DNA of 40,622 nt from Runella sp. (GTDB lineage: Bacteria; Bacteroidota; Bacteroidia; Cytophagales; Spirosomataceae), in contig NZ_JAIXST010000056.1 of assembly GCF_027484545.1 (NCBI RefSeq), positions 1-40,622 on the forward strand. Direction: 5' to 3'. Position 1 is the first letter of the stretch. Each line of letters begins with the position of its first letter. A program made the translations under genes and the position numbers. The notes under the pieces were generated by a model, which worked only from the letters and a program-made list of their open reading frames with translations, had not been told where the DNA came from and ran no database searches. Shown here one piece after another: positions 968 through 30,015 of the stretch.

Positions 968-979
968 TCCTACTATCAG

Positions 980-6031: not shown

Positions 6032-6043
6032 ATACAGACCACT

Positions 6044-6437: not shown

Positions 6438-7193
6438 ATGAGCAAGAAAGTTTTGATTTTGGCTTCCAATGTCGGCCTTTGGGCAGAAGAATTGCAAGCC
6501 CCTTGGGATGCCCTTAAAAAAACAGGATTTGAACTTACATTAGCAACTCCATTTGGCGTCACTCCGTTGCCGTTGGTTTTGAGCATGGACAAAGGATTTG
6601 TGGATCCAATGCAAAATTATAACGTGAACCCTCCTGAAGTGGTTGACCGCTGCAATGAAATCCTCGACACCGGTGAGTGGGATAGCCCCATCAAAATTGA
6701 AGACGCGGTCATGTCAGATTATGACTCGTTGGTGATTGTCGGAGGCCCGGGTTCGGCACTTGATATTGTGGGAAATCCGCATGTACATAAGCTGTGCGTA
6801 ACTGCGTACGAGCAGGGCAAGATTTTAGGCGCACTCTGCTATGCCGTAGGAGCGTTTGTGTGGGCACGCGAAAGCGATACGTTGCACCGCAGTATTATTT
6901 ACGGCAAAAAAATTGTGGCACACCCGCGCGAATGGGATTTTACCGGATTAATGGATTATCCGTTGGTACGGGCAAAAGAAGGCAATGCGGGTACAAATAT
7001 TGTAACTCAGGGATTTGCTTTCCCACTGTTGGTCATCGTGGAAGATGCGGTAGGACCCAATGGTCGTGTCTATTCTGATCCGGGTGCCAATCGCAACAAA
7101 CCTCAAGTGAACTACGACCATCCGTTTGTGACCGCCCTGTCGGTGGAATCATCTATTGCTTTTGGCCAAAAATTGGTAGAAGTTCTTTCGTAA
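6438..7193 (+). CDS. DJ-1/PfpI-family protein (Hsp31-like, long form)
   Basis: A 251-residue class I glutamine-amidotransferase-like protein. The nucleophile elbow is GALCYAVGAF with Cys134, and an N-terminal glutamate lies in LWAEELQAPW, where DJ-1 relatives keep an acidic residue that lowers the cysteine pKa. It is longer than DJ-1 itself and resembles the Hsp31 branch in length and in the VIVGGPGSALDI segment. The residue after the nucleophile is Tyr rather than the His seen in PfpI-type CHG motifs, so the triad differs from the classic form. Relatives act as glyoxalase III, deglycase or chaperone-like proteins; the substrate here is unknown. It is followed 16 bases on by a second, shorter DJ-1 protein. 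Confidence 0.85.
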   Translation: MSKKVLILASNVGLWAEELQAPWDALKKTGFELTLATPFGVTPLPLVLSMDKGFVDPMQNYNVNPPEVVDRCNEILDTGEWDSPIKIEDAVMSDYDSLVIVGGPGSALDIVGNPHVHKLCVTAYEQGKILGALCYAVGAFVWARESDTLHRSIIYGKKIVAHPREWDFTGLMDYPLVRAKEGNAGTNIVTQGFAFPLLVIVEDAVGPNGRVYSDPGANRNKPQVNYDHPFVTALSVESSIAFGQKLVEVLS

Positions 7194-7209
7194 TTTAAAT
7201 CAACACCTT

Positions 7210-7782
7210 ATGAAACTCAAGGGTAAAAAAATCGGGATTCTTTTTGAGGCTGATTATTACGAAAACGAAATATTTTATTACAAATACCGATTTCCGGAAG
7301 AAGGAGCTGACATTCATTTTCTGACGCGTTTGTGGGGACAGGACAAAATCACATTCCATGGGCACGAGTACAAAGTGCCGATGGATTGTTGGGAGAGTTT
7401 TGAAAACATGAGTGACGAAGAACTTCGCAGCTATTCGGCTATCATCGTACCGTCGGGCATGGTTTCAGACCGCCTTCGGTACACGGAAGATGTGGAGAAA
7501 ATCCCGCCGGCGACCGAATTCCTGAAGCGCGTATTTGCCGAACCAACCGTATTAAAAGGAATCATCTGCCACGGCTTGTGGCTGGTGGCTCCGGCTGCCG
7601 AATTGGTGAAAGGCCGCAAATTGGTTTGTCATAACAACCTCATCGGCGATGCCAAAGCCTACGGTGCCATTTATACCAACGAAGATGTGGTGGTGGACGG
7701 TGACTTGGTGACGGGACGCTCGGGAGGACATGCACACCTCTTTGCTAAAAAAATCATCGAAATTTTGTCTGAACAAGCTTAA
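7210..7782 (+). CDS. DJ-1/PfpI-family protein (short form)
   Basis: A 190-residue ThiJ/PfpI-like protein with the classic nucleophile elbow GIICHGLWL (Cys120-His121) and the C-terminal SGGHAHLFAKKII helix typical of the family. An acidic N-terminal turn (FEADYYENEIFYYKYRF) sits where the conserved glutamate is expected. It lies between the longer DJ-1 gene and the VOC gene, with gaps of about 15 bases. In the Synechocystis icfG cluster, as I recall it, a ThiJ/PfpI protein (slr1854) stands just before the AGE-like slr1855, the same order as here apart from the VOC gene. Possible roles are removal of reactive carbonyls or a redox-sensitive regulator. Confidence 0.87.
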   Translation: MKLKGKKIGILFEADYYENEIFYYKYRFPEEGADIHFLTRLWGQDKITFHGHEYKVPMDCWESFENMSDEELRSYSAIIVPSGMVSDRLRYTEDVEKIPPATEFLKRVFAEPTVLKGIICHGLWLVAPAAELVKGRKLVCHNNLIGDAKAYGAIYTNEDVVVDGDLVTGRSGGHAHLFAKKIIEILSEQA

Positions 7783-7796
7783 AACCACGCCTGATT

Positions 7797-8210
7797 ATGC
7801 TCCAAACATCATTTTTTCACGTGGCCGTTACGGTAAAAGATCTGAGTGCTTTTGAAAATTTTTACGCAAAATACTTTGGATTTAGTCGGGCGCGTACCAT
7901 TTCGTTGGGAGAGGGAAAAGAGCTGGTTTTCTTGAAAGACGCGGGCAATTTTTACTTTGAAGTATTTCCGCCCGACCAAGAACGCCCCGTGCCGCTCGCC
8001 GAAGGAGATGGCCCTCATTATCCCGGGTTTCGGCACTTGGCGTTTTCTGTCGATGACGTAGATGCCAAACTGGCCGAAATGGGCGAAGACGCCGTCATTA
8101 CGCTCGGACCTTTGAAGTTTGACGATTTTATTCCGGGTTGGAAAACTGCCTGGGTCAAAGACCCCGAAGGTAATATTATCGAAATCACCCAAGGATATGT
8201 TGACCAATAA
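7797..8210 (+). CDS. VOC-family protein (glyoxalase/dioxygenase superfamily)
   Basis: A 137-residue single-unit VOC protein made of two beta-alpha-beta-beta-beta repeats. The four positions that usually bind the metal are all filled: His8 (FFHVAVTV), Glu55 (FYFEVF), His80 (FRHLAFSV) and Glu129 (IIEITQ). The H/E/H/E set matches glyoxalase I-type and several isomerase or lyase members rather than the extradiol dioxygenases. It is cytosolic. Together with two DJ-1 proteins and an MBL protein it forms a group whose relatives often handle methylglyoxal-like carbonyls, but that pathway is an inference. It is the last gene before a 174-base gap containing an inverted repeat. Confidence 0.87.
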   Translation: MLQTSFFHVAVTVKDLSAFENFYAKYFGFSRARTISLGEGKELVFLKDAGNFYFEVFPPDQERPVPLAEGDGPHYPGFRHLAFSVDDVDAKLAEMGEDAVITLGPLKFDDFIPGWKTAWVKDPEGNIIEITQGYVDQ

Positions 8211-8245
8211 GGTCAAGGATAAGCACAAAGCAGTATTTAGTAGTA

Positions 8246-8325: not shown

Positions 8326-8384
8326 AAAATCTAAGTACTATCTGTTTCTATACAATTTAAACCTTTTAATAACCATTCGAATTC

Positions 8385-10208
8385 ATGAAACTTGATTTTA
8401 CTTTCTCCGACACCCTTGCTGGGTATGTAATAGAATATAATTCGGCCGAACGCTGGTATACCGTTGAAACTTCCGATAAACGGGTGTTCAAAGTCAATTT
8501 GATTCCCTCTACTTACGCCCGTACTTTCCGTAATTTGGAAGAGCCTTACCAAGATGCCTCGGGAGTAATGAACGATTTATTGGCAAAGCCAGGACAGTTT
8601 GTGTATTCATACGGTACCTTTTATCCGGCTACCGACGGAGGGGAAACTGTCTTTGAAGTACAATGGATCATCTTTCCAAGTACGGCTCCGCTCGAATACC
8701 GTCACGAAGCGCAGGACTGGTGGATCAATCAAATTTCTTCCATTGCCAGTAGCTACCTGAAATGGCAGTTTAACTACCCACAGGAAGAAATTAATTACAA
8801 GAACTACCGGACCATGCTGCATTTGGCGGGTTCTAAAAAAGGAGATTACCTACAGGAAACAGATACTATCTCACGGATGATCTACGGCTTTGCATCAGCC
8901 TATATGATTACGGGGAACGAAGGGTTTTTGGAAGGAGCTGAATTAGGAACGGAATACCTCCGCGACCACATGCGTTTTTATGACCAGGATGCCGACCTCG
9001 TGTATTGGTACCATGGTATGAAAGTAGAGGGAGAAAAAGAAACCAAATTGTTGACCTCTGAATTTGGGGATGACTGGGATTCTTTGCCGATGTACGAACA
9101 AATTTATGCGCTTGCCGGTCCTACTCAGACCTACCGTCTGACGGGAGATCCGCGCATTATGTGGGACATTGAAAAAACCATCGAACTGTTTGAGAAATAC
9201 TTCAAAGACAACGAGCAGGAAGGTTATTTCTCCCACATCGACCCCATCACGCTCGACCCGCGCGCCGAGTCGTTGGCTCACAACCGCGCCCGTAAAAACT
9301 GGAACTCCGTAGGTGACCACGCACCGGCATACCTTATCAATCTGTACTTAGCCACGGGCGAGCAGAAATACGCTGATTTCTTAGAATATACCTTCGATAC
9401 CATTACAAAATATTTCCCCGACTACGAAAATAGTCCGTTTGTTCAGGAGAAATTCTTTGAGGATTGGAGCAAAGACCAAACGTGGGGATGGCAACAAAAC
9501 CGCGCGGTAGTAGGTCACAACCTCAAAATTGCGTGGAACCTGATGCGGATGCAATCGTTGGTTCCGAAAGATTCGTACCTCGAATTTGCCAAAAAAATTG
9601 CTGAATTGATGCCGGAAGCCGGTTCTGACCCACAACGCGGCGGTTGGTATGACGTAGTGGAACGCGCTACCAAAACTAATGGACACCACCAGTTTGTATG
9701 GCATGACCGCAAAGCATGGTGGCAACAGGAACAGGCCATTCTCGCTTACATGATTTTACACGGTATTCTCAAAGACGATGAATACCTCAAATACGCCCGT
9801 GAGTCAGCGGCGTTCTACAACGCATTCTTCCTCGATACGGACGATGGCGGGGTTTATTTCAACGTCTTTGGTAACGGAATGCCGTACTTGCTTGGAACAG
9901 AGCGCTTTAAAGGAAGTCACTCCATGAGCGCGTACCACAGCACGGAGTTGTGTTTCCTTTCGGCAGTGTACACCAACCTGCTCATTACCAAGCAGCCTAC
10001 CTATTTCTACTTTAAGCCGTATCCAAACGGTTTCAAAGACAACAAGCTGTTTGTTTCTCCTGATATCCTTCCAAAAGATAGTGTATATATCAGTGAGTGC
10101 TACATTGACGATGTGCCTTACACTGATTTTGACGCGAGTGCCTTGACCGTGACTCTACCTCAAACGACAGAGCGCGTTCGGGTAAAAGTCCTCATTAGTC
10201 CTAAGTAA
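8385..10208 (+). CDS. AGE-family (N-acylglucosamine 2-epimerase-like) (alpha/alpha)6-barrel protein with added beta domains
   Basis: A 607-residue protein, longer than the usual AGE enzymes of about 400 residues. A central helical barrel (about 110-510) is preceded by an N-terminal beta-rich domain (about 1-105) and followed by a short C-terminal beta domain (about 535-607). AGE hallmarks are visible: GHNLKIAWNL with His378, at the position of the catalytic His in AGE and cellobiose 2-epimerase, and KAWWQQEQA with K443-W445-W446 and E449. The family epimerises or isomerises the reducing end of sugars. The neighbouring STAS-GlgX-STAS genes match the setting of the AGE-like gene slr1855 in the cyanobacterial icfG cluster. 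The role is likely carbohydrate-related, but the substrate is unknown. Confidence 0.83.
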   Translation: MKLDFTFSDTLAGYVIEYNSAERWYTVETSDKRVFKVNLIPSTYARTFRNLEEPYQDASGVMNDLLAKPGQFVYSYGTFYPATDGGETVFEVQWIIFPSTAPLEYRHEAQDWWINQISSIASSYLKWQFNYPQEEINYKNYRTMLHLAGSKKGDYLQETDTISRMIYGFASAYMITGNEGFLEGAELGTEYLRDHMRFYDQDADLVYWYHGMKVEGEKETKLLTSEFGDDWDSLPMYEQIYALAGPTQTYRLTGDPRIMWDIEKTIELFEKYFKDNEQEGYFSHIDPITLDPRAESLAHNRARKNWNSVGDHAPAYLINLYLATGEQKYADFLEYTFDTITKYFPDYENSPFVQEKFFEDWSKDQTWGWQQNRAVVGHNLKIAWNLMRMQSLVPKDSYLEFAKKIAELMPEAGSDPQRGGWYDVVERATKTNGHHQFVWHDRKAWWQQEQAILAYMILHGILKDDEYLKYARESAAFYNAFFLDTDDGGVYFNVFGNGMPYLLGTERFKGSHSMSAYHSTELCFLSAVYTNLLITKQPTYFYFKPYPNGFKDNKLFVSPDILPKDSVYISECYIDDVPYTDFDASALTVTLPQTTERVRVKVLISPK

Positions 10209-10222
10209 AATACACTATCACT

Positions 10223-10558
10223 ATGAAAGTAGCAGAAAATATTATTGAGAGTATTGCTGTCATTGAGGTCGAAGGCAACATTGACAGCAAAACTGCTCCC
10301 GAGTTTGAGAAGGCCGCGTTGGCCTCCATCAAAAATCAAGGGCAGGTCATCATTGACCTGAGCAAAGTTGAATTTCTTTCCAGTGCCGGCTTGCGGGTAC
10401 TTTTGATGATTTATCGTCAAATCAAGGTCCAAAGCGGTAAAGTAGTGCTCGTAGGAGTATCGGAAGAGATTCAGGAAGTTATGTCGAACACCGGTTTTAT
10501 CAACTTCTTTATTATCGTCGGAACCATCGAAGAGGGGATACAAACGTTAAAAAGCTAA
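10223..10558 (+). CDS. STAS-domain anti-sigma-factor antagonist (SpoIIAA/RsbV-like), first copy
   Basis: A 111-residue protein that is a single STAS domain. It has the expected EVEGNIDSKTAPEFE opening, a VIIDLSKVEFLSSAG strand-turn and a final helix. The serine that partner kinases phosphorylate is probably Ser54 in FLSSAGLRVLL. In the known scheme, the unphosphorylated STAS protein binds an RsbW/SpoIIAB-type ATPase and frees that ATPase's client; phosphorylation stops this and a PP2C phosphatase reverses it. Both partner types are in this gene run (ATPase at 13082, receiver-PP2C at 27811). It lies 14 bases after the AGE gene and 4 bases before glgX, so translation is tightly coupled to a glycogen enzyme. 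Confidence 0.93.
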   Translation: MKVAENIIESIAVIEVEGNIDSKTAPEFEKAALASIKNQGQVIIDLSKVEFLSSAGLRVLLMIYRQIKVQSGKVVLVGVSEEIQEVMSNTGFINFFIIVGTIEEGIQTLKS

Positions 10559-10562
10559 AAAT

Positions 10563-12680
10563 ATGGCAGATATACGGATTGATTATTACCCTACCCATGA
10601 GTTTGAGGGGATTAAATTCAGACGCGGACATCCCCTGCCATTTGGTGCGACGATGGTACCCAACGGTGTTAATTTCAGCGTGTATTCAAGCGCTGCCATT
10701 TCCTGCACGTTGGTACTGTTTGAACGCGGCGCTCCGGAACCTTATGCCGAAATTCCGTTTCCTGATGAATTTCGAATAGGTGATGTATTTTGCATGACGG
10801 TATTTGATCTTGATTTTGAGCGACTTGAATACGGCTATCGAATGGATGGCCCATTCAAACCTGAAGAAGGATATCGGTTCAACAAAGATGTTATCCTGAG
10901 CGACCCGTACGCCAAAGTACTGGGTGGCCGCGATACGTGGCGAGCTCAACCCAACTGGGACGATGTGTATCCGTACCGTTCCCGTTTGGCCTTCGAAGAT
11001 TTCGACTGGGAAAACGACCACCCGCTCGAAACCCCTATTGAAGACCTGTCCATTTACGAAATGCACGTTCGGGGTTTTACGAGCCACCCCTCGGCCGAAA
11101 CCAAGAATGCCGGAACATTCAGTGGGATTCGCAGTAAAATCCCTTATCTTAAATCGCTGGGTATCAATTGCATTGAGCTCATGCCGATCTATGAATTTGA
11201 CGAGTGGGAAAACAGTCGTACCAACCCGATAACGGGCGAATTGTTGGTGAATTATTGGGGCTACAGCACGGTTAACTTTTTCTCGCCCAAAGCAGGGTAC
11301 GCGGCTACCGGAAAGTTTGGAATGCAGGTGGATGAGTTGAAAACGCTCATCAAGGAGCTCCATAAAAACGGGATTGAAGTGTTTTTGGACGTGGTATTCA
11401 ACCACACCGCCGAAGGCGACCACCGAGGACATACCATTTCGTTTCGGGGAATTGATAACAAAACGTACTACATGCTGACGCCCGAAGGCTATTATTTTAA
11501 CTTCTCGGGAACCGGTAATACGTTGAACTGTAACCACCCCGTGGTACGGAATATGGTACTTGACTGCCTTCGCTACTGGGCTTCAGATTACCACATTGAT
11601 GGTTTTCGCTTTGACTTGGCCGCTATTCTTGGGCGCGCCCAGGACGGTAGCCCGTTGAGCAATCCGCCTTTGTTGGAATCTTTGGCGTATGATCCCATTT
11701 TGGCTAAGTGTAAGCTGATTGCCGAAGCGTGGGATGCGGGCGGGTTGTATCAGGTAGGTTCTTTTCCGGCGTATGGCCGTTGGGCTGAATGGAACGGAAA
11801 ATACCGCGATACCGTGCGTCGCTATCTGAAGGGAGACCCCGGCATGATAGGAGAAATGGCGCAGCGTGTTCAGGGTTCACCGGATTTGTATTCGTTGCGC
11901 GGGCCCACCGCCAGTATCAACTTTGTGGCCTGTCACGATGGATTTACGCTGTACGATATGTTTGCCTACAACGATAAACATAACGAAGCCAACGGCGAAA
12001 ATAATAACGACGGAGCTAACGACAACAATTCCTGGAACTCCGGATGGGAAGGCGAAACTGACGATCCGGAAGTCAATTTTCTGCGGCATAAGCAAGTCAA
12101 GAATGCCCTCACAATTTTGATGGTCAGTCAAGGCGTGCCTATGATTTTGATGGGCGACGAAATGGGCCATACCCAACACGGTAATAATAATACCTATTGT
12201 CAGGATACGGAATGGAACTGGCTGAATTGGTCTTTGCTGCAAAGCAATCCTGACCTGTTCCACTATGCACAGCAGATTCTGCGATTCAGACGCGCTCACC
12301 CCGTGTTGCGAAGTGCCAACCATTTCCGTCATTATGACTACGTAGGCAGTGGATTTCCCGACATCAGTTTCCACGGCACCTTGGCCTGGAGACCCGATTG
12401 GTCAGCAGAGAGCCGCACGTTGGCCTTTATGCTTTGCGGAAACCACGCCAAAGGAGGTACGATTCGTGACGAAACCATTTACGTAGCCATGAATATGTAC
12501 TGGGAGTCGTTACACTTCGAATTACCCATCTTGGCAGACGGCAGCAAATGGCACGTATTTGCCAATACGGACATGACTAATTCGCAGGATATTCATTTGA
12601 TCGGAGAAGAGCCTTTGCTCGAAGACCAATCCGGCTTTTTTGTAGGAGCCCGGTCAGTAGTTGTACTGGTCGCCAAATAA
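10563..12680 (+). CDS. glgX: Glycogen debranching enzyme GlgX (GH13 isoamylase type)
   Basis: A 705-residue GH13 protein with an N-terminal CBM48-like beta domain (about 15-150), a TIM barrel (about 155-580) and a C-terminal beta domain. The GH13 catalytic set is complete: nucleophile Asp351 in DGFRFDLA, acid/base Glu388 in LIAEAWDAGG, and the third acid in the CHDG motif (H458-D459). The GRWAEWNGKYRDTVRR and NGENNNDGANDNNSWN stretches are typical of GlgX/TreX. It hydrolyses alpha-1,6 branches of glycogen limit dextrins. Its placement between two STAS genes is unusual for a metabolic gene and matches the icfG cluster (slr1857 between slr1856 and slr1859). No other glycogen gene is in the window. 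Confidence 0.96.
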   Translation: MADIRIDYYPTHEFEGIKFRRGHPLPFGATMVPNGVNFSVYSSAAISCTLVLFERGAPEPYAEIPFPDEFRIGDVFCMTVFDLDFERLEYGYRMDGPFKPEEGYRFNKDVILSDPYAKVLGGRDTWRAQPNWDDVYPYRSRLAFEDFDWENDHPLETPIEDLSIYEMHVRGFTSHPSAETKNAGTFSGIRSKIPYLKSLGINCIELMPIYEFDEWENSRTNPITGELLVNYWGYSTVNFFSPKAGYAATGKFGMQVDELKTLIKELHKNGIEVFLDVVFNHTAEGDHRGHTISFRGIDNKTYYMLTPEGYYFNFSGTGNTLNCNHPVVRNMVLDCLRYWASDYHIDGFRFDLAAILGRAQDGSPLSNPPLLESLAYDPILAKCKLIAEAWDAGGLYQVGSFPAYGRWAEWNGKYRDTVRRYLKGDPGMIGEMAQRVQGSPDLYSLRGPTASINFVACHDGFTLYDMFAYNDKHNEANGENNNDGANDNNSWNSGWEGETDDPEVNFLRHKQVKNALTILMVSQGVPMILMGDEMGHTQHGNNNTYCQDTEWNWLNWSLLQSNPDLFHYAQQILRFRRAHPVLRSANHFRHYDYVGSGFPDISFHGTLAWRPDWSAESRTLAFMLCGNHAKGGTIRDETIYVAMNMYWESLHFELPILADGSKWHVFANTDMTNSQDIHLIGEEPLLEDQSGFFVGARSVVVLVAK

Positions 12681-12715
12681 ATTGATTCAATCTCAACATA
12701 AAAACACTTTATAAC

Positions 12716-13036
12716 ATGGATTTTACAATAAACTCTGAAGTAGTCGATAAAGTAGCTAAAATTACCTTGTCGGGCGAACTCGATTCGTTATCGGCTCGGG
12801 TTTTTCAAAAAGAAATCGAAAAAGTAGCGCTTCAGTCGCCTACTGAACTGGTCCTGGATATGGAACACTTGGCTTTTATGTCGTCGGCAGGATTGCGGGT
12901 GTTGATTTTCTCGAAGCAAAAAATGGGGGTAGGACTTACTATCTACGTGGTGAAGCCGCAGGAAGCCATTGTAGATACCCTCGAAAAAACGGGATTGCAA
13001 CACAGTGTGAACATTGTGGACCAATACCCAGCTTAA
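12716..13036 (+). CDS. STAS-domain anti-sigma-factor antagonist, second copy
   Basis: A 106-residue single STAS domain opening with KITLSGELDSLSARVFQKE and containing LVLDMEHLAFMSSAGLRVLI, where Ser57 is the likely phosphorylation site. It differs clearly from the first STAS protein, so the two probably answer to different kinases or phosphatases, or compete for one ATPase. It lies 35 bases after glgX and 45 bases before the RsbW-like gene. That adjacent pair is the standard arrangement of an antagonist with its anti-sigma kinase, so this copy is the better candidate for direct binding. Confidence 0.93.
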   Translation: MDFTINSEVVDKVAKITLSGELDSLSARVFQKEIEKVALQSPTELVLDMEHLAFMSSAGLRVLIFSKQKMGVGLTIYVVKPQEAIVDTLEKTGLQHSVNIVDQYPA

Positions 13037-13081
13037 CCCATTCGAGGAGCGCGAAATTCGCTATTACAAGGTAATAACCAA

Positions 13082-13540: not shown

Positions 13541-13560
13541 CCTGTTGGAAGGGCTGCTAA

Positions 13561-16767: not shown

Positions 16768-16781
16768 CCTATTTAACGAAA

Positions 16782-19997: not shown

Positions 19998-20058
19998 AGC
20001 ATTTTTTGGTGATTTATTTTTTGCCCTTTGCCTATTTTCCTTAAACTAATCCCATTGA

Positions 20059-22962
20059 ATGATTAAAAAACAGGAAATATTTGACCTCCTCAATCTGAAA
20101 CAGGGCGATATTGCTGTTGTCAGACCTTTCATGTTGTACTCCTTTTTTATGGGGGGAGCGGTAGCTATTTTTTATACGGCTACCATGTCACTGTTTCTGG
20201 ATAGTTTTGACCGAACGATGCTTCCCAAATCGTACATTGTCAGTGGAATCATTGTCTATGTATTGGGGTATGCAGTCTCTAAATTTCAAAAACGGGTCTA
20301 TTTTTCAAAAATCTCCCTTTCCTTGATTCTGTTTCTGATTGCATCGGTTATTATTCTGCTTATTGTGCATTTTGTGACTGGTAATAAATGGGTTTATTTT
20401 TTCCTTTTCATTTGGAATCGGGTCTTTGTTTTTGTCAATGGTCTTTCGTTTTGGGCGATTGTTTCCCGGATTTTCAATCATGAACAAGCCCGGCGACTCA
20501 TCAGCTTCATTACGACGGGGGACGTCGTTTCCTCCATTTTAAGTTATCTGTCAGTGCCTTTGCTGTTGCGTTTTACCACCACACACGGCCTGCTCTATGT
20601 TTCGCTGGGAGCGTTGATGATTTGTGTAGTATTGTCCATCCTTATTTCAAAAAAATACAATTCGGAGCTCTCCGTTGTAGCCCATTCACACGAGGGAAGG
20701 GAGGATAAAAACTGGAAATATTTTTTTAAAACGCCTTATTATACGGCGATTTTTCTACTGGCGATTTTGCCCGTTTTCGGCTTGTTTTATGTAGAATATG
20801 TCTTTGCCATTGAGTCAAAAAGTGTGTTTCCGGATAAAGAATTGCTGGCAGGTTTTTTAGGGGTATTTTTCAGTATGTGTGCGGAAATTGAATTGTTTAT
20901 TAAGTTCTTTTTGTACGGACGCATCATTGAAAAATACGGCCTGAAATTGGGATTGGTCATTTTACCCCTGTCCCTGACCGTCTTCTTTGCCTTTGCAGCC
21001 ATGTATGGGTCCTTTTACGGCGCCACCTACGTGTTTTTCGCGTTCATTGTCATGAGCCGGTTTTTTATGAGTGCTTTGCGAAAATCAATCAGTGAACCCT
21101 CCTTTCAGTTGTTGTTTCAACCCATTGAGCCCGTAGAAAGATTGGAGTTGCAAAGTCGAATAGAAGGAGGACCAAAAGCCATCGGCAGCATTTTGGCCGG
21201 GGTTTTTCTGCTTGCTCTTACCTATTTCACGTTTATTGATACCATTTACCTTTCCTATATTTTTCTCTTTATTTTGGTGGGATGGGTTTGGATTGCCTTA
21301 ACTACTCAAACGCTTTATCGGAATACGTTGAGAAATGTATTGGCCGGTACCAATACATTTTTGAAAAAACGTCGCAGGCAGGTAGAAGACGAACTCTTAC
21401 CGACGGTGGAAGAAGTAGTGCTGGAGATGCCTGTAAAACGCCTTGATTTTGAGTCTATTATCAAAATGGCTCAATCAAAAGACCCCGATGAACGATTGCA
21501 GGCGGTGTATTTGCTGGGAAAATCGGGACGCTATTTTGCGTTTAAATACTTGGAAGAACTTCTCCATGACAAAAATCATCATGTAAAACGGGCTGCTATT
21601 CTGGCATCAGGCTCGGTTCGGAAAAATGAGCTTTGGCCTCATTTGTTTAACAGCCTTTCGTCCAAATATTATAAACAACCCGTGGTTTTGGCGCTTGCGG
21701 AAATTGGTGAGCCGGTGATTCCCGACCTCGAACGCTTTTTTAATCGTCTGGAAAACGACCGCGCTTCTCAATTGAAAATTATTTGCGTGATTGAGTGCAT
21801 CAACAGTAATGCATCCATCAAATTTTTAAGAGCCAAAATGAATCACCCTGACCCACATATTCGAGATCGGGTATATGAGGCTTTGAAAAAATTGCATTAC
21901 CGGGCTACTGTGCTGGAACGCCCTCATATCACGGCCGAAATAGACGAAAAAGCGGCTTTAATGGTCTGGCTGATGGCTGCTCAAAAGGATTTGACTGGAC
22001 AACCCGAGACTGAGCAATTGGTAGAAGCATTGGAGGAAGAAAGCTATCAGACCACTCCTAAGCTTTTCAATCTATTGGCAATTTTGAACGGCGACCAAGG
22101 GTTTGATTTGATCAAAGAAATGTACGAAAACAAAAGCCCGGAGACACGCGGCTTTTTGCAGGAAATCTTCAATATGGCACTTACGGAAGATATGCGGGTA
22201 AAGCTGATGCCTCTTTTTGATGACTTACCTCTTTCGGACAAATTGCAAAAGTGCCAGGAGAATTACCCACAACAACATTTATCGGTTGAAGACCGGATCG
22301 TGGACATTGTTAACAAAGATTTTTCCCAAATTTCGAGCTCACTCAAAGCGGTAGGAATTCAAAATCTCTTGGATTTTCCGGAATCTGAATACGAATATTT
22401 GCTGGTTGCTTGTGCCAATTCGGGGGTGGAAATTATTGCTGAAACTGCTCTGTATGTGTTGAAAAAGCTATATCCAGACGCTTTGGCTGATTTTAAAGAA
22501 ATCGCCCAGTTTCGGGAAGTGACTCAGGAGATAGAGTATTGTCATACGATTGAAAACAGTGTGGATGGGGAGGAGTTGTTAGTCAATAAATTGAAATCAG
22601 TACGAAAGATAGAGTTATTGGCAAAGTTACCTCCCGACTCCCTTATCCCGGTGGCAGCTACCTTGCGATCGTTTCGTCTAAACCAAGGAGATGTTGTTGA
22701 GCTGAATTCGTATTGTGTGGACGGAATCCCTTTTCTGATTGTATCATACGGAACTATCGAACTCATCGAAACCGATGGTACCACCCATCCCGTAGGAGAG
22801 TGGGACTATTGGTATCATGCCCCTGAGCCGCCGCCCACTACGAAGTTAGAGTCTATCAGAGCCTTATCCAATGCCGAAATTATACTTTTAGACCCCTATT
22901 TAATTTATAACCTAATCGCCGATATCTTTTCTCACCGAGAAGAACGGGCCTTAGCGGCCTGA
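20059..22962 (+). CDS. Nucleotide-translocase-like (NTT/MFS-type) membrane protein with HEAT repeats and a cyclic-nucleotide-binding-like C-terminus
   Basis: A 967-residue protein with three parts. Residues 1-430 hold about ten to twelve hydrophobic segments in a pattern like the ATP/ADP translocase (NTT) and MFS-like families, starting VVRPFMLYSFFMGGAVAIFY. Residues about 455-620 look like HEAT repeats (SKDPDERLQAVYLLGKSGR; HDKNHHVKRAAILASGSVRK; HPDPHIRDRVYEALKKL). Residues about 845-967 have the strand rhythm of a cNMP-binding jelly roll (FRLNQGDVVELNS, GIPFLIVSYGTIELIE, ALSNAEIILLDP) but no clear phosphate-binding cassette. Similar NTT-HEAT fusions occur in bacteria with no parasitic lifestyle and are thought to be sensors or scaffolds. 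It is 61 bases after the GNAT gene and 12 or 33 bases before the sensor kinase, depending on which start is used. Confidence 0.75.
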   Translation: MIKKQEIFDLLNLKQGDIAVVRPFMLYSFFMGGAVAIFYTATMSLFLDSFDRTMLPKSYIVSGIIVYVLGYAVSKFQKRVYFSKISLSLILFLIASVIILLIVHFVTGNKWVYFFLFIWNRVFVFVNGLSFWAIVSRIFNHEQARRLISFITTGDVVSSILSYLSVPLLLRFTTTHGLLYVSLGALMICVVLSILISKKYNSELSVVAHSHEGREDKNWKYFFKTPYYTAIFLLAILPVFGLFYVEYVFAIESKSVFPDKELLAGFLGVFFSMCAEIELFIKFFLYGRIIEKYGLKLGLVILPLSLTVFFAFAAMYGSFYGATYVFFAFIVMSRFFMSALRKSISEPSFQLLFQPIEPVERLELQSRIEGGPKAIGSILAGVFLLALTYFTFIDTIYLSYIFLFILVGWVWIALTTQTLYRNTLRNVLAGTNTFLKKRRRQVEDELLPTVEEVVLEMPVKRLDFESIIKMAQSKDPDERLQAVYLLGKSGRYFAFKYLEELLHDKNHHVKRAAILASGSVRKNELWPHLFNSLSSKYYKQPVVLALAEIGEPVIPDLERFFNRLENDRASQLKIICVIECINSNASIKFLRAKMNHPDPHIRDRVYEALKKLHYRATVLERPHITAEIDEKAALMVWLMAAQKDLTGQPETEQLVEALEEESYQTTPKLFNLLAILNGDQGFDLIKEMYENKSPETRGFLQEIFNMALTEDMRVKLMPLFDDLPLSDKLQKCQENYPQQHLSVEDRIVDIVNKDFSQISSSLKAVGIQNLLDFPESEYEYLLVACANSGVEIIAETALYVLKKLYPDALADFKEIAQFREVTQEIEYCHTIENSVDGEELLVNKLKSVRKIELLAKLPPDSLIPVAATLRSFRLNQGDVVELNSYCVDGIPFLIVSYGTIELIETDGTTHPVGEWDYWYHAPEPPPTTKLESIRALSNAEIILLDPYLIYNLIADIFSHREERALAA

Positions 22963-22995
22963 TTCTGAAGTGTAATGAGCTATTTTTTTGAATTA

Positions 22996-25900
22996 ATGAA
23001 AAACAAATTGTCAACGTACCAACAACCGAAGAGGTATAAGCAAGCGTCAGTTTTTGTACGTGGCTGGTTTGCATTGCTTGCGGTACTGCTGTGGGGTGGG
23101 GGAGCATGGGGACAAAGCAATAAAAAAAAAAAAAAAAAAGGGATTCCACTCAGTAAGATGTACAATCCCAAAGAATACAATGCTCATGGTCAGAACTTTG
23201 CAGTGGCGCAGGACCAACGGGGATTGATGTATTTTGGAAATTTTGCGGGCGTACTTGAATACGACGGGGTTTCGTGGCGAACCATCCCAACCGGAACCAT
23301 CACCAAAGTGTCCGCTTTGTGCGTGAGTAAATTTGGACGGGTGTTTGTGGGAGCAAAAGGGGAATTCGGGTATTTGAAACCTGATAGCACCGGAACCCTT
23401 GGTTTTGAAGGCCTCAGTAAAGATGTGAAAGCTGAGTTTGGGCAAATATTGACTGTTTTTCAAACAGAGGCAGGGATTTATTTTGTGGCTCAACATCATA
23501 TTTTTCTGTTAGACTCAAAGGGTGTCAAGGAATTTCAGGTAGGCGGTACTATTTTGTCTTCCTTTTATGCCAATCAGAAAATCATTGTTTTGTTGAAAGA
23601 CGGAGGTCCCCATTTTTTTGAGGGACAAAGATTGGTACCCATAGAAAAGGCCCCTCTGACACCCGTTATTTTTGATATGACTGCCGTATTTCCAACTGCA
23701 GACGGCCAATTGTTACTCCTTACCAGCAGTCAGGGATTATTCAAATTAGCAAATAATACCATTCGTACGTTTGATTGCCCGGTCAATAGCTATTTGATTG
23801 CGAATCAGACTACGGCGGGACAGGTGTTGGAAAATGGTAATTTGGCCATTGGAACGCTCAAAGAAGGAGTTGTGGTAATAACTCCCAACGGGCAAATTGT
23901 CAATCGAATCAAAGACAATGATTATTTGCAGGATATGCAGGTCAATGCTATGTTCTGCGATCGGGAAGGAGCCTTGTGGTTAGCGCTGAATAACGGGATT
24001 GTATCCATCGATATATCTTCGCCCATTGAGCGATTCAATGAGTTTTCAAATCTTAAAGGAGAAGTGAAAGGCATTGCAAGAGCCAACGGACGGTTGTACG
24101 TAGGAACCCTTAACGGTCTTTTTTCCCTCAAAGATTTTACCGTAAATCCCATTCCAGCGGTCAATGCCAGTTGTTTTGATTTGGAAGTCGTGGGAGGAGC
24201 CCTGTTTGTGGCAACCAATAAAGGTTTGGTGCAGGTCTCAGAAAGCGGTGTTCAAAAAATCACTCCTTTTTACACGCTATGTCTTCAGGCATCGAGAGTG
24301 AATCCTTTTCATTTATACGTGGGCCAGCAAAGTGGGCTCGGTATGATAAACATGAAAAATGGAAAAGGCGGAGAGTACCGATTGATTGGAGCCATCAACG
24401 AGCAAATCATGGGCATTGCGGAAGACGCCGATGGCACGATTTGGCTCGAAACCCTGTCGGATGGACTTTTTAAAGTGAATGCGAAAACCTACGAAGTGAA
24501 AAAGTATGCTGCCAAGGAAGGTTTGCCGCCAATGTCGTACAACCGTGTCACCTATACATCGCAGGGATTGATTGCTTATAATCAAAAAGGAACGTTTAGA
24601 TACGATAATCAAAAAGACCGATTTGAACCTTACAATCTTTTTCAAACCGAAAACTCCTCTACCGTTTACTGGAAAGGAAATATCGTAGAAGACGATAAAG
24701 GGAATATTTGGACGACTCAGGGAGATGAAAAAATGGTGACGGCTTACCTTAAAACAGGGCAGGACAAAAAACCGTACCGAAAACTTACCTCGTCTTTTTT
24801 ACCCATTGCCGATATTCCTTTGAACGTCATTTACCCCGATAACAATAATTTGATTTGGTTTGGCGGTCCGGAAGGGGTCATTCGGTATGACCTTACCATG
24901 AGCCGAGATTATCAGCGTACGTATGCGGCTTTGATTCGGAAAGTGACCATAAAAGGAGAAAATGTACTTTACAACGGGTATCCGACTGATACCGCCGCTG
25001 CAAAGTCTGACTTGGCGGTTCAGGAAATAGATTTGGACTATCAAAATAATAACATTCGATTTGAATTCTCGGCTCCCAATTACCACGCAAGCGAGGTATT
25101 GGTGTTTCAATACTATCTCGAAAATTTTGATAAGGCTTGGTCAGAGTGGACATCGCAGTCGCAAAAAGAATATACCCACCTGCCGTCCGGCGATTATCGG
25201 TTTCGAGTAAAAGCAAAAAATATTTACGGGATACAAAGCGAAGAGGCCATCGTACAATTTACCGTGCAGACGCCCCTGTACTTAAAGTGGTGGGCTATCT
25301 TGCTGTATTTTATTTTGTTCAGTGCCATTATCTATTACGCAGTCCGGTGGCGATTGCGGGTGTTGGAACGTGAAAAAATGGAATTGGAAAATCTCATCAA
25401 AGAGCGTACCGAAGAAGTGGTGAGCCAGAAAGTCGAGCTCGAAAAGCAATCGAAAGAACTGACGACCAAAAACGACCAACTCGAAAAGATTGACATCATC
25501 GTGCAGGCGATTAATGCCGAAATCAATTTCGCCAATCTGTTTCAAACCGTATTGACGCGCCTGAAAATCATCCGAAACATGGACAATGCGAGCGCGTTGA
25601 TTTTTGATAAGGAAACCAACAGCTTTCGGTTCAAAGCACTGTACGGTTCCAATGCGCTAGGGTTGGTCGCCTCCGTTGAGTTGAGTCACGAAGAAGCCGA
25701 AAACCGCTATTTGTACGAAGCCCTCGAAGTATACGAAGATATCTATTTCAAAAATGACATTAAATACGATAAACTGAACAATGCGGTAGATCAATTGATG
25801 ACTCCGAAGTCAATGATTGCGATTGTTATCAAAGTCGATAGTCAAATCGAAGGTTTTATTACGCTCGAAAACTGCGCCCGTTCCAATGCATTTGATCAGC

Positions 25901-26811
25901 GAGATTTCAACATGATCAAAAACCTGAAAGAACACTTGATTGCGGCCTACATTAAAACCCGGATATTAGAAAACCTTGAAAAAACGCTTACCAATTTAAA
26001 AGACACCCAGGAAGAATTAATCAGGCAGGAAAGACTGGCTTCGGTCGGACAATTAACCAAAGGGATTGTCGACCGTATTTTGAATCCCCTCAACTACATC
26101 AACAATTTTTCGGAGTCATCAAAACTGTTGGTAGATGAGTTGAATGAAATGATTTCAAAAAATGAGAATTCGGTAGCGGATGAAATCAAAGATGATTTGT
26201 ACGATGTACTGGATTTGATCAAAAACAGTGTTTCAAAAATCTATGACCATGGCAACAGTACCACGCGCATTGTAAAAGACATGCAGAAGTTGCTGAAAGA
26301 AAAATCAAGCGACTTTTTTGAAACCGACCTCAACGCGTTTGTAGAAAGCCGGGCAAAAACCGCACTGCATGATTTTCAGGTAAACAATAAGGATTTTAAC
26401 GGAGATTTAGTATTCAATTTGGAAAAGGAATCGGTCAAAACCAAGATTTTGCCGCCTGAACTGGGTGATGTGATTTTGAGTCTTCTGGACAATTCTTTTT
26501 ACACGATTTATGAGAAAGGTAAGCTTAGTAAAACGTTTTCTCCACAGGTGCAGGTGTCTACTGAATTAGTGAAAGATGAAATTTACTTAAAAATAAAAGA
26601 CAATGGCAAAGGCATTCCGCGACGTGATTTAGAGAGACTTTTTAGCCCGTTTTTTACCACTAAGCCTACTTCCAAAGGCACTGGCTTAGGGTTATTTATG
26701 AGTAAAGACATTATTGAAATGCACAAAGGTAAAATTGAAATTTATTCCAAAGAGGGCGAATTTACGGAGGTAGTGATTGTTTTGCCAACGGTAAATAAGT
26801 TTCCTTCCTAA
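22996..26811 (+). CDS. Propeller sensor kinase (Reg_prop/Y_Y_Y/GAF/HATPase) lacking the phospho-accepting histidine
   Basis: A 1271-residue protein from this start (an upstream ATG at 22975 adds seven residues; 22996 gives a better signal peptide). Order: signal peptide with WFALLAVLLWGGGAWG; lysine run encoded by A18; two-component-regulator beta propeller (about 45-680); Y_Y_Y domain (about 680-765); membrane segment (WAILLYFILFSAIIYYAV); coiled coil; GAF-like domain (about 845-985); HisKA-like helix; HATPase. The H box reads SVGQLTKGIVDRILNPLNYI where relatives have GIxHEIxNPL, so the phospho-accepting His is Asp1026. The ATPase part keeps an N-box Asn (LLDNSFYTIY), DNGKGIP and GTGLGLFMS. 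It probably senses an envelope signal and works through the soluble kinase encoded next, 13 bases downstream. Confidence 0.92.
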   Translation: MKNKLSTYQQPKRYKQASVFVRGWFALLAVLLWGGGAWGQSNKKKKKKGIPLSKMYNPKEYNAHGQNFAVAQDQRGLMYFGNFAGVLEYDGVSWRTIPTGTITKVSALCVSKFGRVFVGAKGEFGYLKPDSTGTLGFEGLSKDVKAEFGQILTVFQTEAGIYFVAQHHIFLLDSKGVKEFQVGGTILSSFYANQKIIVLLKDGGPHFFEGQRLVPIEKAPLTPVIFDMTAVFPTADGQLLLLTSSQGLFKLANNTIRTFDCPVNSYLIANQTTAGQVLENGNLAIGTLKEGVVVITPNGQIVNRIKDNDYLQDMQVNAMFCDREGALWLALNNGIVSIDISSPIERFNEFSNLKGEVKGIARANGRLYVGTLNGLFSLKDFTVNPIPAVNASCFDLEVVGGALFVATNKGLVQVSESGVQKITPFYTLCLQASRVNPFHLYVGQQSGLGMINMKNGKGGEYRLIGAINEQIMGIAEDADGTIWLETLSDGLFKVNAKTYEVKKYAAKEGLPPMSYNRVTYTSQGLIAYNQKGTFRYDNQKDRFEPYNLFQTENSSTVYWKGNIVEDDKGNIWTTQGDEKMVTAYLKTGQDKKPYRKLTSSFLPIADIPLNVIYPDNNNLIWFGGPEGVIRYDLTMSRDYQRTYAALIRKVTIKGENVLYNGYPTDTAAAKSDLAVQEIDLDYQNNNIRFEFSAPNYHASEVLVFQYYLENFDKAWSEWTSQSQKEYTHLPSGDYRFRVKAKNIYGIQSEEAIVQFTVQTPLYLKWWAILLYFILFSAIIYYAVRWRLRVLEREKMELENLIKERTEEVVSQKVELEKQSKELTTKNDQLEKIDIIVQAINAEINFANLFQTVLTRLKIIRNMDNASALIFDKETNSFRFKALYGSNALGLVASVELSHEEAENRYLYEALEVYEDIYFKNDIKYDKLNNAVDQLMTPKSMIAIVIKVDSQIEGFITLENCARSNAFDQRDFNMIKNLKEHLIAAYIKTRILENLEKTLTNLKDTQEELIRQERLASVGQLTKGIVDRILNPLNYINNFSESSKLLVDELNEMISKNENSVADEIKDDLYDVLDLIKNSVSKIYDHGNSTTRIVKDMQKLLKEKSSDFFETDLNAFVESRAKTALHDFQVNNKDFNGDLVFNLEKESVKTKILPPELGDVILSLLDNSFYTIYEKGKLSKTFSPQVQVSTELVKDEIYLKIKDNGKGIPRRDLERLFSPFFTTKPTSKGTGLGLFMSKDIIEMHKGKIEIYSKEGEFTEVVIVLPTVNKFPS
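23122..23139 (+). repeat. A18 homopolymer inside the sensor-kinase coding sequence
   Basis: Eighteen consecutive A residues encode six lysines just after the signal peptide of the propeller sensor kinase. With this count the frame is open through the whole gene. Loss or gain of one base would truncate the protein right after export. The tract is a candidate site for DNA phase variation or transcriptional slippage. Confidence 0.95.
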
Positions 26812-26824
26812 TCACGAAACGTAC

Positions 26825-27724
26825 ATGGAAAAAGCTAACAAATTGATAGACGGGGAACAAAGCGATGCTTTGCTCCAACAAAAAGATGGGCAGCCAAATG
26901 AAGAGTTGGATGAGTTCAAAGAGCGTTTTGTGCAAATCAACAAATTGGCTGAAATCGGTCAGTTAACGGCGGGGATACTTCACGAAATTCAGAATCCACT
27001 CAATTTTATCAATAATTTTTCCCGACTTTCGGTCGATTTAGTGGGTGAAATAAAAGAAATTTTGGAGAAAAAACAGGGACAGCCGCTTACAGAAGATGAA
27101 CAGGAAGACCTTCTTTTTTTGCTCAATAAATTAGAAGGGGTTAATACGAAGGTAGGCGAAAACGGGGGGCGTATCGGGCGAATAATTCAAAGCATGTTGG
27201 CCCAGACCCGATCGGAAAACAAAACGGTTCAATTTGAGCCGGTCGATCTGAATCAGCTTTTGGAAGAGTTTACCAAACTGGCGTATCAGGGAATCAGGGG
27301 AGAAGATCGTTCTTTCAACGTATCCTTTCTTTTTCAACTGGACCCGGCCGTGGGTCTGGTCAAATTGGCAGCTACTGAAATAAGCCGGGTGGTGTTGAAT
27401 TTGGTCAACAATGCCTGCTACGCCATCAATGAAAAGCGTAAATTGGCGCTGGAGGGCTATACCCCGCAACTTGCCGTGAGTGCAGTGAGATTAACTGATC
27501 TGATTGAAATCAAAATCAGGGATAATGGGATGGGCATTCCGGATGCGGTCAAAGAAAAAATATTTACCCTTTTTTTTACAACCAAGCCCGTCGGCAAAGG
27601 TTCCGGCTTGGGATTGGCCTTGAGTCGAGACATTGTTACGGTCATGCACAAAGGTCACTTGAGTGTAGTCTCTGAACCCGGAAATTTTACCGAATTTACC
27701 ATTCAATTACCCCTTAATTTATAA
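26825..27724 (+). CDS. Soluble histidine kinase (HisKA-HATPase), likely partner of the preceding pseudo-kinase
   Basis: A 299-residue protein without signal peptide, membrane segment or sensor domain. The H box is intact: EIGQLTAGILHEIQNPLNFI, with His53. The ATPase region has the N box LVNNACYAINEKR, G1 DNGMGIPD, the F box LFFTTKPVGKG and G2 GSGLGLALS. Its H box and surroundings closely parallel those of the upstream sensor protein (INNFS follows in both), which suggests duplication followed by division of labour. It could form heterodimers with the sensor, taking the phosphoryl group that the sensor cannot accept. The receiver domain of the PP2C protein encoded next is the obvious phosphate target. 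Confidence 0.92.
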   Translation: MEKANKLIDGEQSDALLQQKDGQPNEELDEFKERFVQINKLAEIGQLTAGILHEIQNPLNFINNFSRLSVDLVGEIKEILEKKQGQPLTEDEQEDLLFLLNKLEGVNTKVGENGGRIGRIIQSMLAQTRSENKTVQFEPVDLNQLLEEFTKLAYQGIRGEDRSFNVSFLFQLDPAVGLVKLAATEISRVVLNLVNNACYAINEKRKLALEGYTPQLAVSAVRLTDLIEIKIRDNGMGIPDAVKEKIFTLFFTTKPVGKGSGLGLALSRDIVTVMHKGHLSVVSEPGNFTEFTIQLPLNL

Positions 27725-27810
27725 AAAGAACTTTATCTTTAATGATTAAATGACATAACCTACCTGTTGATTTAAAAAGTTAAGAAAACTCACCCCAAAT
27801 TAAAACGACG

Positions 27811-28992
27811 ATGAGCATCAAGATACTCAGTATGGATGATGAATTGGACATGGAAATGTTAATTCAGACCCGATTCAGAAAACAAATACGGGAAAAAAGA
27901 TTTGAATTTATTTTTGTGCACAATGGCTTTGAAGCATTGGAAGCCATTGAAGCCAACAACGATATTGACATTGTACTTTCGGATATTAACATGCCCGAAA
28001 TGGATGGTTTGACATTCTTGTCAAAACTGAACGAAATGAATAAAGCGCGACTGAAAGCAGTGATGGTGTCGGCCCACGGCGACATGGACAATATTCGCCG
28101 GGCCATGAACTTAGGTGCTTTTGATTTTATTAACAAACCCATCAATTTCGAAGACTTAGAGATTACCATCGATAAAACGGTGGGGTATATCGAAATGATT
28201 AATCAGCATCAGAAAGAGCGCGATCAATTGGTCTCGATCCAGAATGATTTGTTGATAGCCCGCGATATTCAGCAGGCGATGCTGCCCAAGATTTTTCCTC
28301 CCTTCCCGCAACGAAAAGATCTGGATTTACATGGTTTTCTGGAACCGGCAAAGTCAGTAGGCGGGGATTTGTTCGATTTCTTTATGATGGATGAAGATCA
28401 CCTGTTTTTTATCATTGGTGATGTCTCTGATAAAGGCGTGCCGGCCTGTATGTTCATGGCCATTACGAAAGCCATCTTCAAAACCCACTTTTTACACCGG
28501 AGTTTTGAAAATATTGCCGAAGAAGTAAAGCAGGTCAACGCATTTTTATCAGAAGACAACGACTCCTTTATGTTTGTAACTGCGTTTGTTGGAATATTGG
28601 ATTTGAAGACCGGTGTGGTGGAATACGTAGATGCCGGCCACGAGCCTCCTTTCATTATGAGAAAAGGTAAAGGAGTGGAAATCGTGAAAAAAACGATGGG
28701 AATGGCCTTGGGCATTGATCCTACGTTTGATTATCACTCGCAGCAACTTACCCTTCAACCGGGAGATACGCTGTTTCTATACACCGACGGAGTTCCGGAT
28801 GCCAACAATGCGGCGGGGGAACGTTTTGGTCTCAAAAACGCGGAACAAATCCTGACTTCGTTCATTAATGATGAATCTCCCCGCGAAATCAATTCCGTAA
28901 TCCGGGTACAATTAAAAGAGTTTATTGGCGAAAATGCTCAGTTTGACGACATTACAACCCTTACCATTCAGTACTACGGGGATGTAAAGTAA
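27811..28992 (+). CDS. Receiver-PP2C (SpoIIE-type) phosphatase, IcfG/RsbU-like
   Basis: A 393-residue response regulator with a phosphatase output. The receiver domain (1-125) has the acidic pair D9-D10, phospho-acceptor D58 (VLSDINMPEMDG), a Ser in VSAHG, and the Lys of INKPI. A coiled linker (about 128-155) leads through ARDIQQAMLP, typical of RsbU-like proteins, into the SpoIIE domain (about 165-390), which keeps the metal residues in SVGGDLFDFF, IGDVSDKG, DAGHEP and FDDITTL. It is expected to dephosphorylate phosphoserine on STAS proteins, with activity set by the upstream kinase pair. Its STAS partners are encoded about 15 kb upstream in the same run. It is the last gene before the terminator. 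Confidence 0.95.
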   Translation: MSIKILSMDDELDMEMLIQTRFRKQIREKRFEFIFVHNGFEALEAIEANNDIDIVLSDINMPEMDGLTFLSKLNEMNKARLKAVMVSAHGDMDNIRRAMNLGAFDFINKPINFEDLEITIDKTVGYIEMINQHQKERDQLVSIQNDLLIARDIQQAMLPKIFPPFPQRKDLDLHGFLEPAKSVGGDLFDFFMMDEDHLFFIIGDVSDKGVPACMFMAITKAIFKTHFLHRSFENIAEEVKQVNAFLSEDNDSFMFVTAFVGILDLKTGVVEYVDAGHEPPFIMRKGKGVEIVKKTMGMALGIDPTFDYHSQQLTLQPGDTLFLYTDGVPDANNAAGERFGLKNAEQILTSFINDESPREINSVIRVQLKEFIGENAQFDDITTLTIQYYGDVK

Positions 28993-30011: not shown

Positions 30012-30015
30012 TCCC

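Follow-up and report, generated by a model that had tools for sequence, protein, structure and literature searches.

An icfG-type partner switch present across phyla, probably enzyme-directed and rewired in Cytophagales

Introduction

In Synechocystis, the icfG operon comprises genes for a STAS protein (slr1856), an isoamylase (slr1857), a second STAS protein (slr1859), the phosphatase IcfG (slr1860) and a kinase (slr1861), as set out in PMC12329169. Here we analyse a locus of this type on a contig of Runella sp. (Bacteroidota; NZ_JAIXST010000056.1, C146 in our numbering), which at its full length of 40,622 bases is the stretch of DNA called the window below; the genome amounts to 7.12 Mb in 354 contigs. 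The locus runs from two DJ-1-type genes (DJ1a, DJ1b) and a VOC-family gene through genes for an AGE-like enzyme (AGE), a STAS protein (STAS1), a debranching enzyme (GlgX), a second STAS protein (STAS2) and an RsbW-like kinase (RsbW) to a PP2C phosphatase with a receiver domain (REC-PP2C). As in the operon of Synechocystis (slr1856-slr1861), STAS, isoamylase, STAS, PP2C and RsbW-like kinase genes are found together (PMC12329169). In the window, however, the PP2C gene comes last, 14.3 kb behind RsbW with six genes between, its product carries a receiver where the phosphatase of the cyanobacterial locus L287 carries dCache-HAMP, and the genome has no SigC-like sigma factor. Cyanobacteria are represented in our trees by L287 and other loci from outside PCC 6803.

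The SiaABCD system of Pseudomonas aeruginosa resembles the window in uniting a PP2C phosphatase, a kinase and a phosphorylated partner in a partner switch (PMC7647112), and its cyclase SiaD is activated by SiaC (PMC8457831). It differs in its enzyme, and the likeness is one of description. The kinase, STAS and SpoIIE-type phosphatase domains of the RsbU-RsbV-RsbW and SpoIIAA-SpoIIAB systems also recur in the window; unlike in these systems, the cluster loci include no sigma gene, and a group-3 sigma factor is missing from the window genome.

From comparison with relatives we propose that the icfG-type partner switch crosses phyla, is probably enzyme-directed and has been rewired in Cytophagales. 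To the reading that the window holds a conserved enzyme-directed switch whose input was replaced in its lineage, we give about an even chance.

Results and Discussion

Searching named genomes with an alignment of AGE proteins confirmed 539 loci, the best 80 of which were kept, a selection that favours the Nostoc query. STAS1, GlgX, STAS2 and RsbW all accompany AGE in 55 of these 80, 16 loci are partial (some lie at contig ends) and nine belong to a fused type described below. The full sets come from Cyanobacteriota (21), Bacteroidota (14), Pseudomonadota (6), Chloroflexota (5), Thermodesulfobacteriota (2), Myxococcota (2) and, with one each, Acidobacteriota, Nitrospirota, Omnitrophota and Bacillota, one further locus being unclassified. 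Phyla were taken from record titles and several are single metagenome-assembled genomes; the Bacillota record (Acetivibrio L170) bears the title UNVERIFIED_CONTAM, and the tree tool assigned to Myxococcota the records titled Deltaproteobacteria bacterium. A Streptomyces plasmid carries the full gene set with SpoIIE and a Deinococcus plasmid the set without an annotated RsbW. An AGE match was present in 14 of 194 sampled cyanobacteria. Two cyanobacterial loci, L287 and L288, from genomes of 3.8 and 4.0 Mb, have the order DJ1-AGE-STAS-GlgX-STAS-PP2C-RsbW, which bears out the gene order that the original prediction had given for Synechocystis and agrees with the slr numbering of the icfG operon; slr1854 and slr1855 of Synechocystis we take to be the corresponding PfpI and AGE genes. 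In the titles and abstract openings of the open-licence PMC literature we found no icfG cluster outside cyanobacteria, and a term search of the accessible part of PMC8256260 was also blank.

Within Spirosomataceae, an AGE orthologue of at least 77% identity occurs in 27 of 150 genomes, that of the window included, and 20 of the 27 loci were fetched for reading of the gene order. Here six genes lie between RsbW and the phosphatase, as they do in Hymenobacter: those for an nSTAND-WD40 protein, a TonB-dependent receptor (TonBR), a GNAT-like protein, an MFS/NTT-HEAT protein, a Reg_prop/Y_Y_Y sensor with HATPase (PropHK) and a histidine kinase (HK). The order DJ1b-VOC-AGE-STAS1-GlgX-STAS2-RsbW-nSTAND-TonBR-GNAT-NTTHEAT-PropHK is kept in 18 of the 19 loci long enough to judge, L062 (G086) ending inside GlgX; the exception, Arsenicibacter L068, has no recognisable VOC or GNAT gene. 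PropHK, HK and REC-PP2C are contiguous in all 20 downstream regions read, and in nine of these GlgA lies at the phosphatase or one small open reading frame from it. Hymenobacter L295 has the same six-gene block and phosphatase plus an extra PropHK-like gene. Given this conservation, the gene run is far beyond chance, and the neighbourhood recurs in the family and across phyla, which the original prediction had named as support for its reading.

The GlgX tree places all 39 cluster rows, cyanobacterial ones included, on one side of a branch with support 100, apart from the fused type (nine rows) and from ordinary GlgX (seven rows, one of which, L095, falls on a long branch beside the fused type). 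Within the cluster clade the window groups with Bacteroidota, then with Nitrospirota and Pararhodospirillum, and not with cyanobacteria, which rejects a transfer of the cyanobacterial cluster into Bacteroidota. In 15 genomes, identity to the window GlgX is 66-82% for cluster proteins, 43-47% for ordinary and 48-49% for fused-type ones; no second full-length GlgX match was found in the window genome. In the STAS tree, built on a short alignment, STAS1 and STAS2 form two separate lines (STAS1 side, support 99), and the STAS domains fused to AGE group with STAS2 (fork 80, fused group 82). In this weakly resolved tree the STAS2 of L287 is misplaced, branching basally on the STAS1 side; the GlgX and STAS1 of that locus share their clades with the window proteins. 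GlgX and STAS phylogenies alike thus join the window to icfG-type clusters, with which it shares STAS-GlgX-STAS-RsbW beside AGE, a GlgX of the cluster clade and two STAS orthologues with the phosphorylatable serine. Neither result that the original prediction had named as refuting it, a neighbourhood that does not recur or trees placing GlgX and STAS far from icfG-linked relatives, was obtained. By gene order and phylogeny, AGE-STAS1-GlgX-STAS2-RsbW is a cross-phylum cluster and not a cyanobacterial one copied into Bacteroidota, so that the label of a Bacteroidota version of the cyanobacterial cluster, under which the locus was originally predicted, is not supported.

The column of the phosphorylated serine, which we take from known STAS proteins, is Ser in 108/108 STAS1 and 89/89 STAS2 rows, and the RsbW motif positions E, N, D and two G do not vary in 89/89 rows. 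The window RsbW is the sole RsbW match in its genome at E 0.001. Kinase motifs and phosphorylatable serine are traits of a sigma-B/sigma-F switch; a cognate group-3 sigma factor, another such trait, is absent from the window genome, which encodes one Sigma70_r3 protein, RpoD-like and of 287 amino acids. Counted as matches and not as proteins, region-3 sigma factors number one in each of 20 other family carriers (of 26) and in Bacteroidota genome G550, making 22 of 23 Bacteroidota carriers in total; Hymenobacter G548 has two, both of RpoD size, five cyanobacteria have 6-10 and four other carriers 3-6 per genome. No sigma-like open reading frame was detected in 128 cluster loci with 14 queries (13 distinct) from cyanobacteria, Chloroflexota, Proteobacteria, Bacillota and Runella, all of which find one another. 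A further 28 small Runella queries of the extracytoplasmic function (ECF) type gave no match in the 128 loci and also missed 12/12 known control sigma regions.

The fused type points to a target of the STAS proteins. In 17 of 18 GlgX-AGE loci, AGE is longer by about 100 residues or more; Pfam finds STAS in the tail of five of the six long proteins scanned, and all 17 tails match STAS2-type proteins best by BLAST. Across these 18 loci (365 kb) there is no RsbW or PP2C-domain match and no separate STAS gene. The column of the phosphorylated serine holds one Ser, nine Thr, four Glu, two Ala and one Pro in the 17 fused domains. A STAS domain that is fused to AGE and no longer needs the switch suggests AGE as the normal target of STAS2, and together with region-3 sigma factors that are RpoD-like only, it favours direct control of sugar enzymes.

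The competing explanation is that the switch controls transcription, RsbW holding RpoD or an ECF sigma factor that STAS1 and STAS2 release, and the enzymes being the regulated genes. It would account for the canonical RsbW motifs, the window genome has 49 Sigma70_r2 matches, and Slr1861 of Synechocystis is an anti-SigC factor acting through Ssr1600 (PMC12329169, according to which the sigma targets of the two icfG-operon STAS proteins, Slr1856 and Slr1859, are not known). We nevertheless regard it as unlikely, in view of the single region-3 sigma factor in the window genome and in 20/20 other family carriers, the cluster loci devoid of sigma-like frames and the STAS2-type domain fused to an enzyme. 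Several points weigh against control of the enzymes. Slr1861 shows that a kinase of this kind can act on a sigma factor, and RpoD or one ECF factor could be the target in the window genome. The fused STAS domains come from few lineages (11/17 are cyanobacterial, mostly from Nostocales, and four are from one family), nine keep a Thr that could be phosphorylated, Pfam finds no STAS domain in the fused tail of Gemmobacter L105, for which BLAST does give a match to STAS2, and one GlgX-AGE-type enzyme (L109) has no tail. Control of SigC by Slr1861 and STAS proteins directed at enzymes may both be true.

For the enzyme-directed switch we envisage that RsbW would phosphorylate STAS1 and STAS2 on the conserved serine and that the PP2C phosphatase would remove the phosphate. 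Unphosphorylated STAS, STAS2 especially, may then bind the AGE-like enzyme and perhaps GlgX, setting activity or assembly, by which glucan debranching and sugar epimerisation would be tuned without a sigma factor. A wider proposal, which we put forward tentatively, is that the icfG-type cluster serves above all to switch sugar-polymer enzymes post-translationally in about ten phyla, with STAS proteins as regulatory subunits of AGE (and GlgX); the sigma role in cyanobacteria would have come later, and in Cytophagales the sensor would have been swapped for a histidine-kinase pair whose sensing member lacks the phospho-acceptor histidine. If STAS proteins do act on enzymes, glucan metabolism would be under direct control by partner switching in many phyla, with Accumulibacter and Contendobacter among the bacteria concerned. 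A background without group-3 sigma factors and the natural switchless AGE-STAS fusions make the action of STAS on enzymes testable.

The GHN..AW and WQQ motifs of the window AGE align with glucose 2-epimerase 8h1k, and its model (predicted local distance difference test, pLDDT, 82.7) has the helices of the alpha/alpha barrel plus extra beta parts. The fold was assigned through a fused homologue, L165 (61% identical, model pLDDT 77.0), for which Foldseek returned glucose 2-epimerase of Runella slithyformis and cellobiose 2-epimerases (best E near 1e-12), so that the window protein shows the (alpha/alpha)6 fold of the AGE superfamily by way of L165 and its motifs by its own sequence. The closest PDB entry to the window GlgX is plant isoamylase 1 (616 bits, where 2wsk scores 418.6), with which the motifs DGFRFDL, AEAWDAGG and HDGFT, presumably catalytic, align. 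Accumulibacter and Contendobacter are known for their glycogen physiology; GlgX, GlgA near the phosphatase and these two carriers suggest glycogen as the substrate context.

What distinguishes the window is its input. In a tree of PP2C domains, restricted to cluster-linked PP2C and leaving out L117, the window phosphatase groups with that of Nitrospirota L160, a locus whose PP2C gene comes immediately after RsbW (support 97); the phosphatases of Pararhodospirillum, Accumulibacter and Contendobacter join next (98). From this grouping it is best read as the cluster's own PP2C, displaced by the block. The REC-PP2C of Bacteroidales L166 was a candidate sister in the full-length tree; the grouping was lost on the PP2C domain alone, the signal having come from receiver columns. 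Cluster phosphatases vary in their input domains: dCache-HAMP in L287, L135 and L170, HAMP in L148, a receiver in Chloroploca L130, Bacteroidales contig L166 and the window, and no other named domain in L159, L160, L182 and the short frame L112. The receiver, offered by the original prediction as new in this lineage, is therefore not peculiar to it. Many relatives have a phosphatase that is a sensor in its own right or adjoins RsbW, as the PP2C gene does in four other Bacteroidota loci (L155, L159, L161, L164); that of the window neither lies beside RsbW/STAS2 nor has the dCache-HAMP sensor seen in L287. The Cytophagales form appears to be a plain example of a conserved output module whose input has been exchanged. 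The block in between and the receiver on the phosphatase suggest that in Spirosomataceae and Hymenobacter the input has become phosphotransfer from HK to REC-PP2C, whose receiver Asp and PP2C Asp motifs are invariant in 23/23 rows.

HK has the H-box His-Glu in 23/23 rows. Bacteroidota have hybrid two-component systems with Reg_prop/Y_Y_Y sensors; PropHK resembles these in joining Reg_prop and Y_Y_Y to HATPase, but has no receiver or HTH, and its H-box is Asp-Arg in 28/28 rows, the phospho-His being replaced by Asp with ATP-lid motifs intact (the 28 and 23 rows count one Runella rosea plasmid twice). PropHK, able by its motifs to bind ATP and devoid of a phospho-acceptor His, may act as the sensory partner of HK. 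Of 25 readable loci among 30 of relatives, four paralogous ones also have Asp-Arg (L343, L348, L349, L354; G142/G548), and 12 have His-Glu; the remaining nine comprise PropHK genes of the cluster, readings that overlap these genes, and the second PropHK-like gene at the Hymenobacter locus (L361), which is Asp-Arg too. With paralogues outside the cluster among them, Asp-Arg marks a Cytophagales HATPase subfamily and not PropHK alone; lid motifs were checked in PropHK only among these proteins.

The original prediction had a surface signal set STAS phosphorylation, with TonBR or a periplasmic propeller sensing the outer signal and passing it through PropHK and HK to REC-PP2C. In favour of such a chain, block and phosphatase are contiguous and co-oriented in 20 family regions and in Hymenobacter L295. 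Five genomes of genus g17 (L280-L284) speak against it: they keep nSTAND-TonBR-GNAT-NTTHEAT-PropHK with no AGE orthologue, no HK or REC-PP2C beside the block (HK was sought beside the block, in 5/5, and not elsewhere in those genomes), no RsbW match and, among the matches listed, no full-length REC-PP2C, only receiver-region matches. The surface genes can thus exist without the switch, which, together with a PropHK lacking the phospho-His and the absence of STN or FecR from the Pfam matches of window proteins, makes the chain improbable and partly contradicts the predicted role. The STN receptor, FecR and ECF sigma factor of FecA-type TonB surface signalling are accordingly not found here, Sigma70_r2 having no match on the window contig.

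HK and REC-PP2C, unlike TonBR and the propeller protein, were not seen without the switch, and HK to REC-PP2C is the better supported input link. Where no HK gene lies next to it, PropHK still has Asp-Arg, which shows that the PropHK-HK pairing is not obligatory and counts against the sensory-partner role. Conceivably, the block forms an nSTAND/transport module of its own that belongs to the operon only to be co-expressed, leaving HK to REC-PP2C as the sole added input. This is a possibility we take seriously while leaning against it: five of the six block genes survive alone in g17, nested inside linked forms, and other groups encode MFS/NTT-HEAT-like proteins near AGE with the remaining block genes missing, but near-perfect conservation of order across genera and in Hymenobacter suggests joint function. 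Insertion of the block from a free-standing module was also considered; the free-standing g17 forms nest within cluster-linked ones, so loss is the simpler reading. A defence island around the nSTAND gene was rejected, since PADLOC gave weak, partial matches for five window proteins (mad3 21.1 bits, HEAT-ARM 20.3) and the block is syntenic across genera.

Other features of the window

The genes named in the original prediction are all present on the + strand (Table 1); it did not mention the VOC, GNAT and second DJ-1 genes. Its NTT-HEAT protein does have HEAT repeats, the NTT assignment being doubtful, as Pfam offers a sub-threshold MFS_1 match for the membrane part. The window AGE shares 90.9% identity with an AGE-like protein encoded on an 88 kb Runella rosea plasmid, which places the genome in or near Runella (Spirosomataceae). 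A search for Bacteroidetes-type promoter motifs in the window was unproductive, and a terminator scan gave seven sites against a shuffle mean of 6.3, a total not above chance. Gaps between genes are 0-86 bases throughout 10223-28992, with a single gap of 174 bases before AGE.

Table 1. Position and domain support of the genes of the locus and of one predicted terminator in the window.
Feature	Position	Strand	Support
DJ1a, DJ-1/ThiJ-like protein	6438..7193	+	Pfam DJ-1_PfpI 40 bits, ThiJ_like 39.6
DJ1b, DJ-1/PfpI protein	7210..7782	+	Pfam 62.5 bits
VOC/glyoxalase-family protein	7797..8210	+	Pfam Glyoxalase 43.6 bits
AGE-like enzyme, 607 amino acids, extra N- and C-terminal beta parts	8385..10208	+	Pfam GlcNAc_2-epim
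STAS1	10223..10558	+	STAS 75.4 bits
GlgX/isoamylase-type debranching enzyme	10563..12680	+	TIGR02100 679.5 bits (cut-off 640.9)
STAS2	12716..13036	+	STAS 64.2 bits
RsbW/SpoIIAB-like kinase	13082..13540	+	HATPase_c_2 67.3 bits
Block gene 1, nSTAND1 NTPase with WD40 propeller	13561..16767	+	nSTAND1 272 bits; position conserved
Block gene 2, TonB-dependent receptor (TonBR)	16782..19406	+	Plug 74.3, barrel 103.3 bits
Block gene 3, GNAT-like protein	19407..19997	+	Acetyltransf_1 24.2 bits
Block gene 4, MFS/NTT-like membrane part with HEAT repeats (NTT-HEAT)	20059..22962	+	HEAT_2 47.7 bits; MFS_1 25, below cut-off
Block gene 5, Reg_prop/Y_Y_Y sensor with HATPase (PropHK)	22975..26811	+	H-box Asp-Arg, not His-Glu
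Block gene 6, histidine kinase (HK), no recognised sensor domain	26825..27724	+	HisKA-HATPase; H-box His-Glu
REC-PP2C (SpoIIE-type) phosphatase, last gene of the run	27811..28992	+	REC 78.6, SpoIIE 155.9 bits
Terminator-like hairpin	29039..29067	+	12-pair stem then T run; consensus match only

Neighbours of AGE were also counted in the 128 loci by BLAST against a small panel, weak matches included; the set holds some genomes twice (at least L062/L178, L068/L158, L069/L162 and L065/L102). A DJ1b-type gene accompanies 95 and a VOC gene 54 of the 110 unfused-type loci, and a DJ1a/GAT1-type gene 40/110 unfused and 6/18 fused ones. MFS/NTT-HEAT-like or MFS/TLC-like proteins are encoded close to AGE in further families of the phylum (L087-L091), in Chloroploca L130 and in Deinococcus L106; L089 also encodes a protein with a pullulanase X25 domain and an ankyrin-glyoxalase protein. 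Within the block, an NTT-HEAT orthologue of at least 30% identity is present in 27 of 121 family genomes, the five g17 genomes among them, and TonBR has an N-terminal extension, TPR-like by eye, whose residues 29-120 are about as conserved as the barrel (28 rows).

In some Nostocales (L110, L113) the STAS2-RsbW-PP2C part is inverted a few kb off and MinD/ParA and CHAT-domain genes follow GlgX, while in L293 the cyanobacterial AGE reading frame is split in two with other open reading frames between. Many fused-type loci (L104, L165-L184) have AGE-STAS beside a REC-glutaredoxin-pyridine nucleotide reductase and a histidine kinase binding cyclic nucleotide monophosphate, domains having been scanned for L104. 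Upstream of the locus, 46-6382 holds the end of a thiamine pyrophosphate enzyme gene cut by the contig start and genes for a SnoaL-like protein, a metallo-beta-lactamase-fold protein, a molybdenum hydroxylase and an FAD subunit; parts of this run recur near AGE clusters of several phyla. Downstream of the phosphatase, a LytTR response regulator and a TPR-HisKA_2 kinase are encoded at 29268-31902, a pair seen in Runella only among the downstream regions read.

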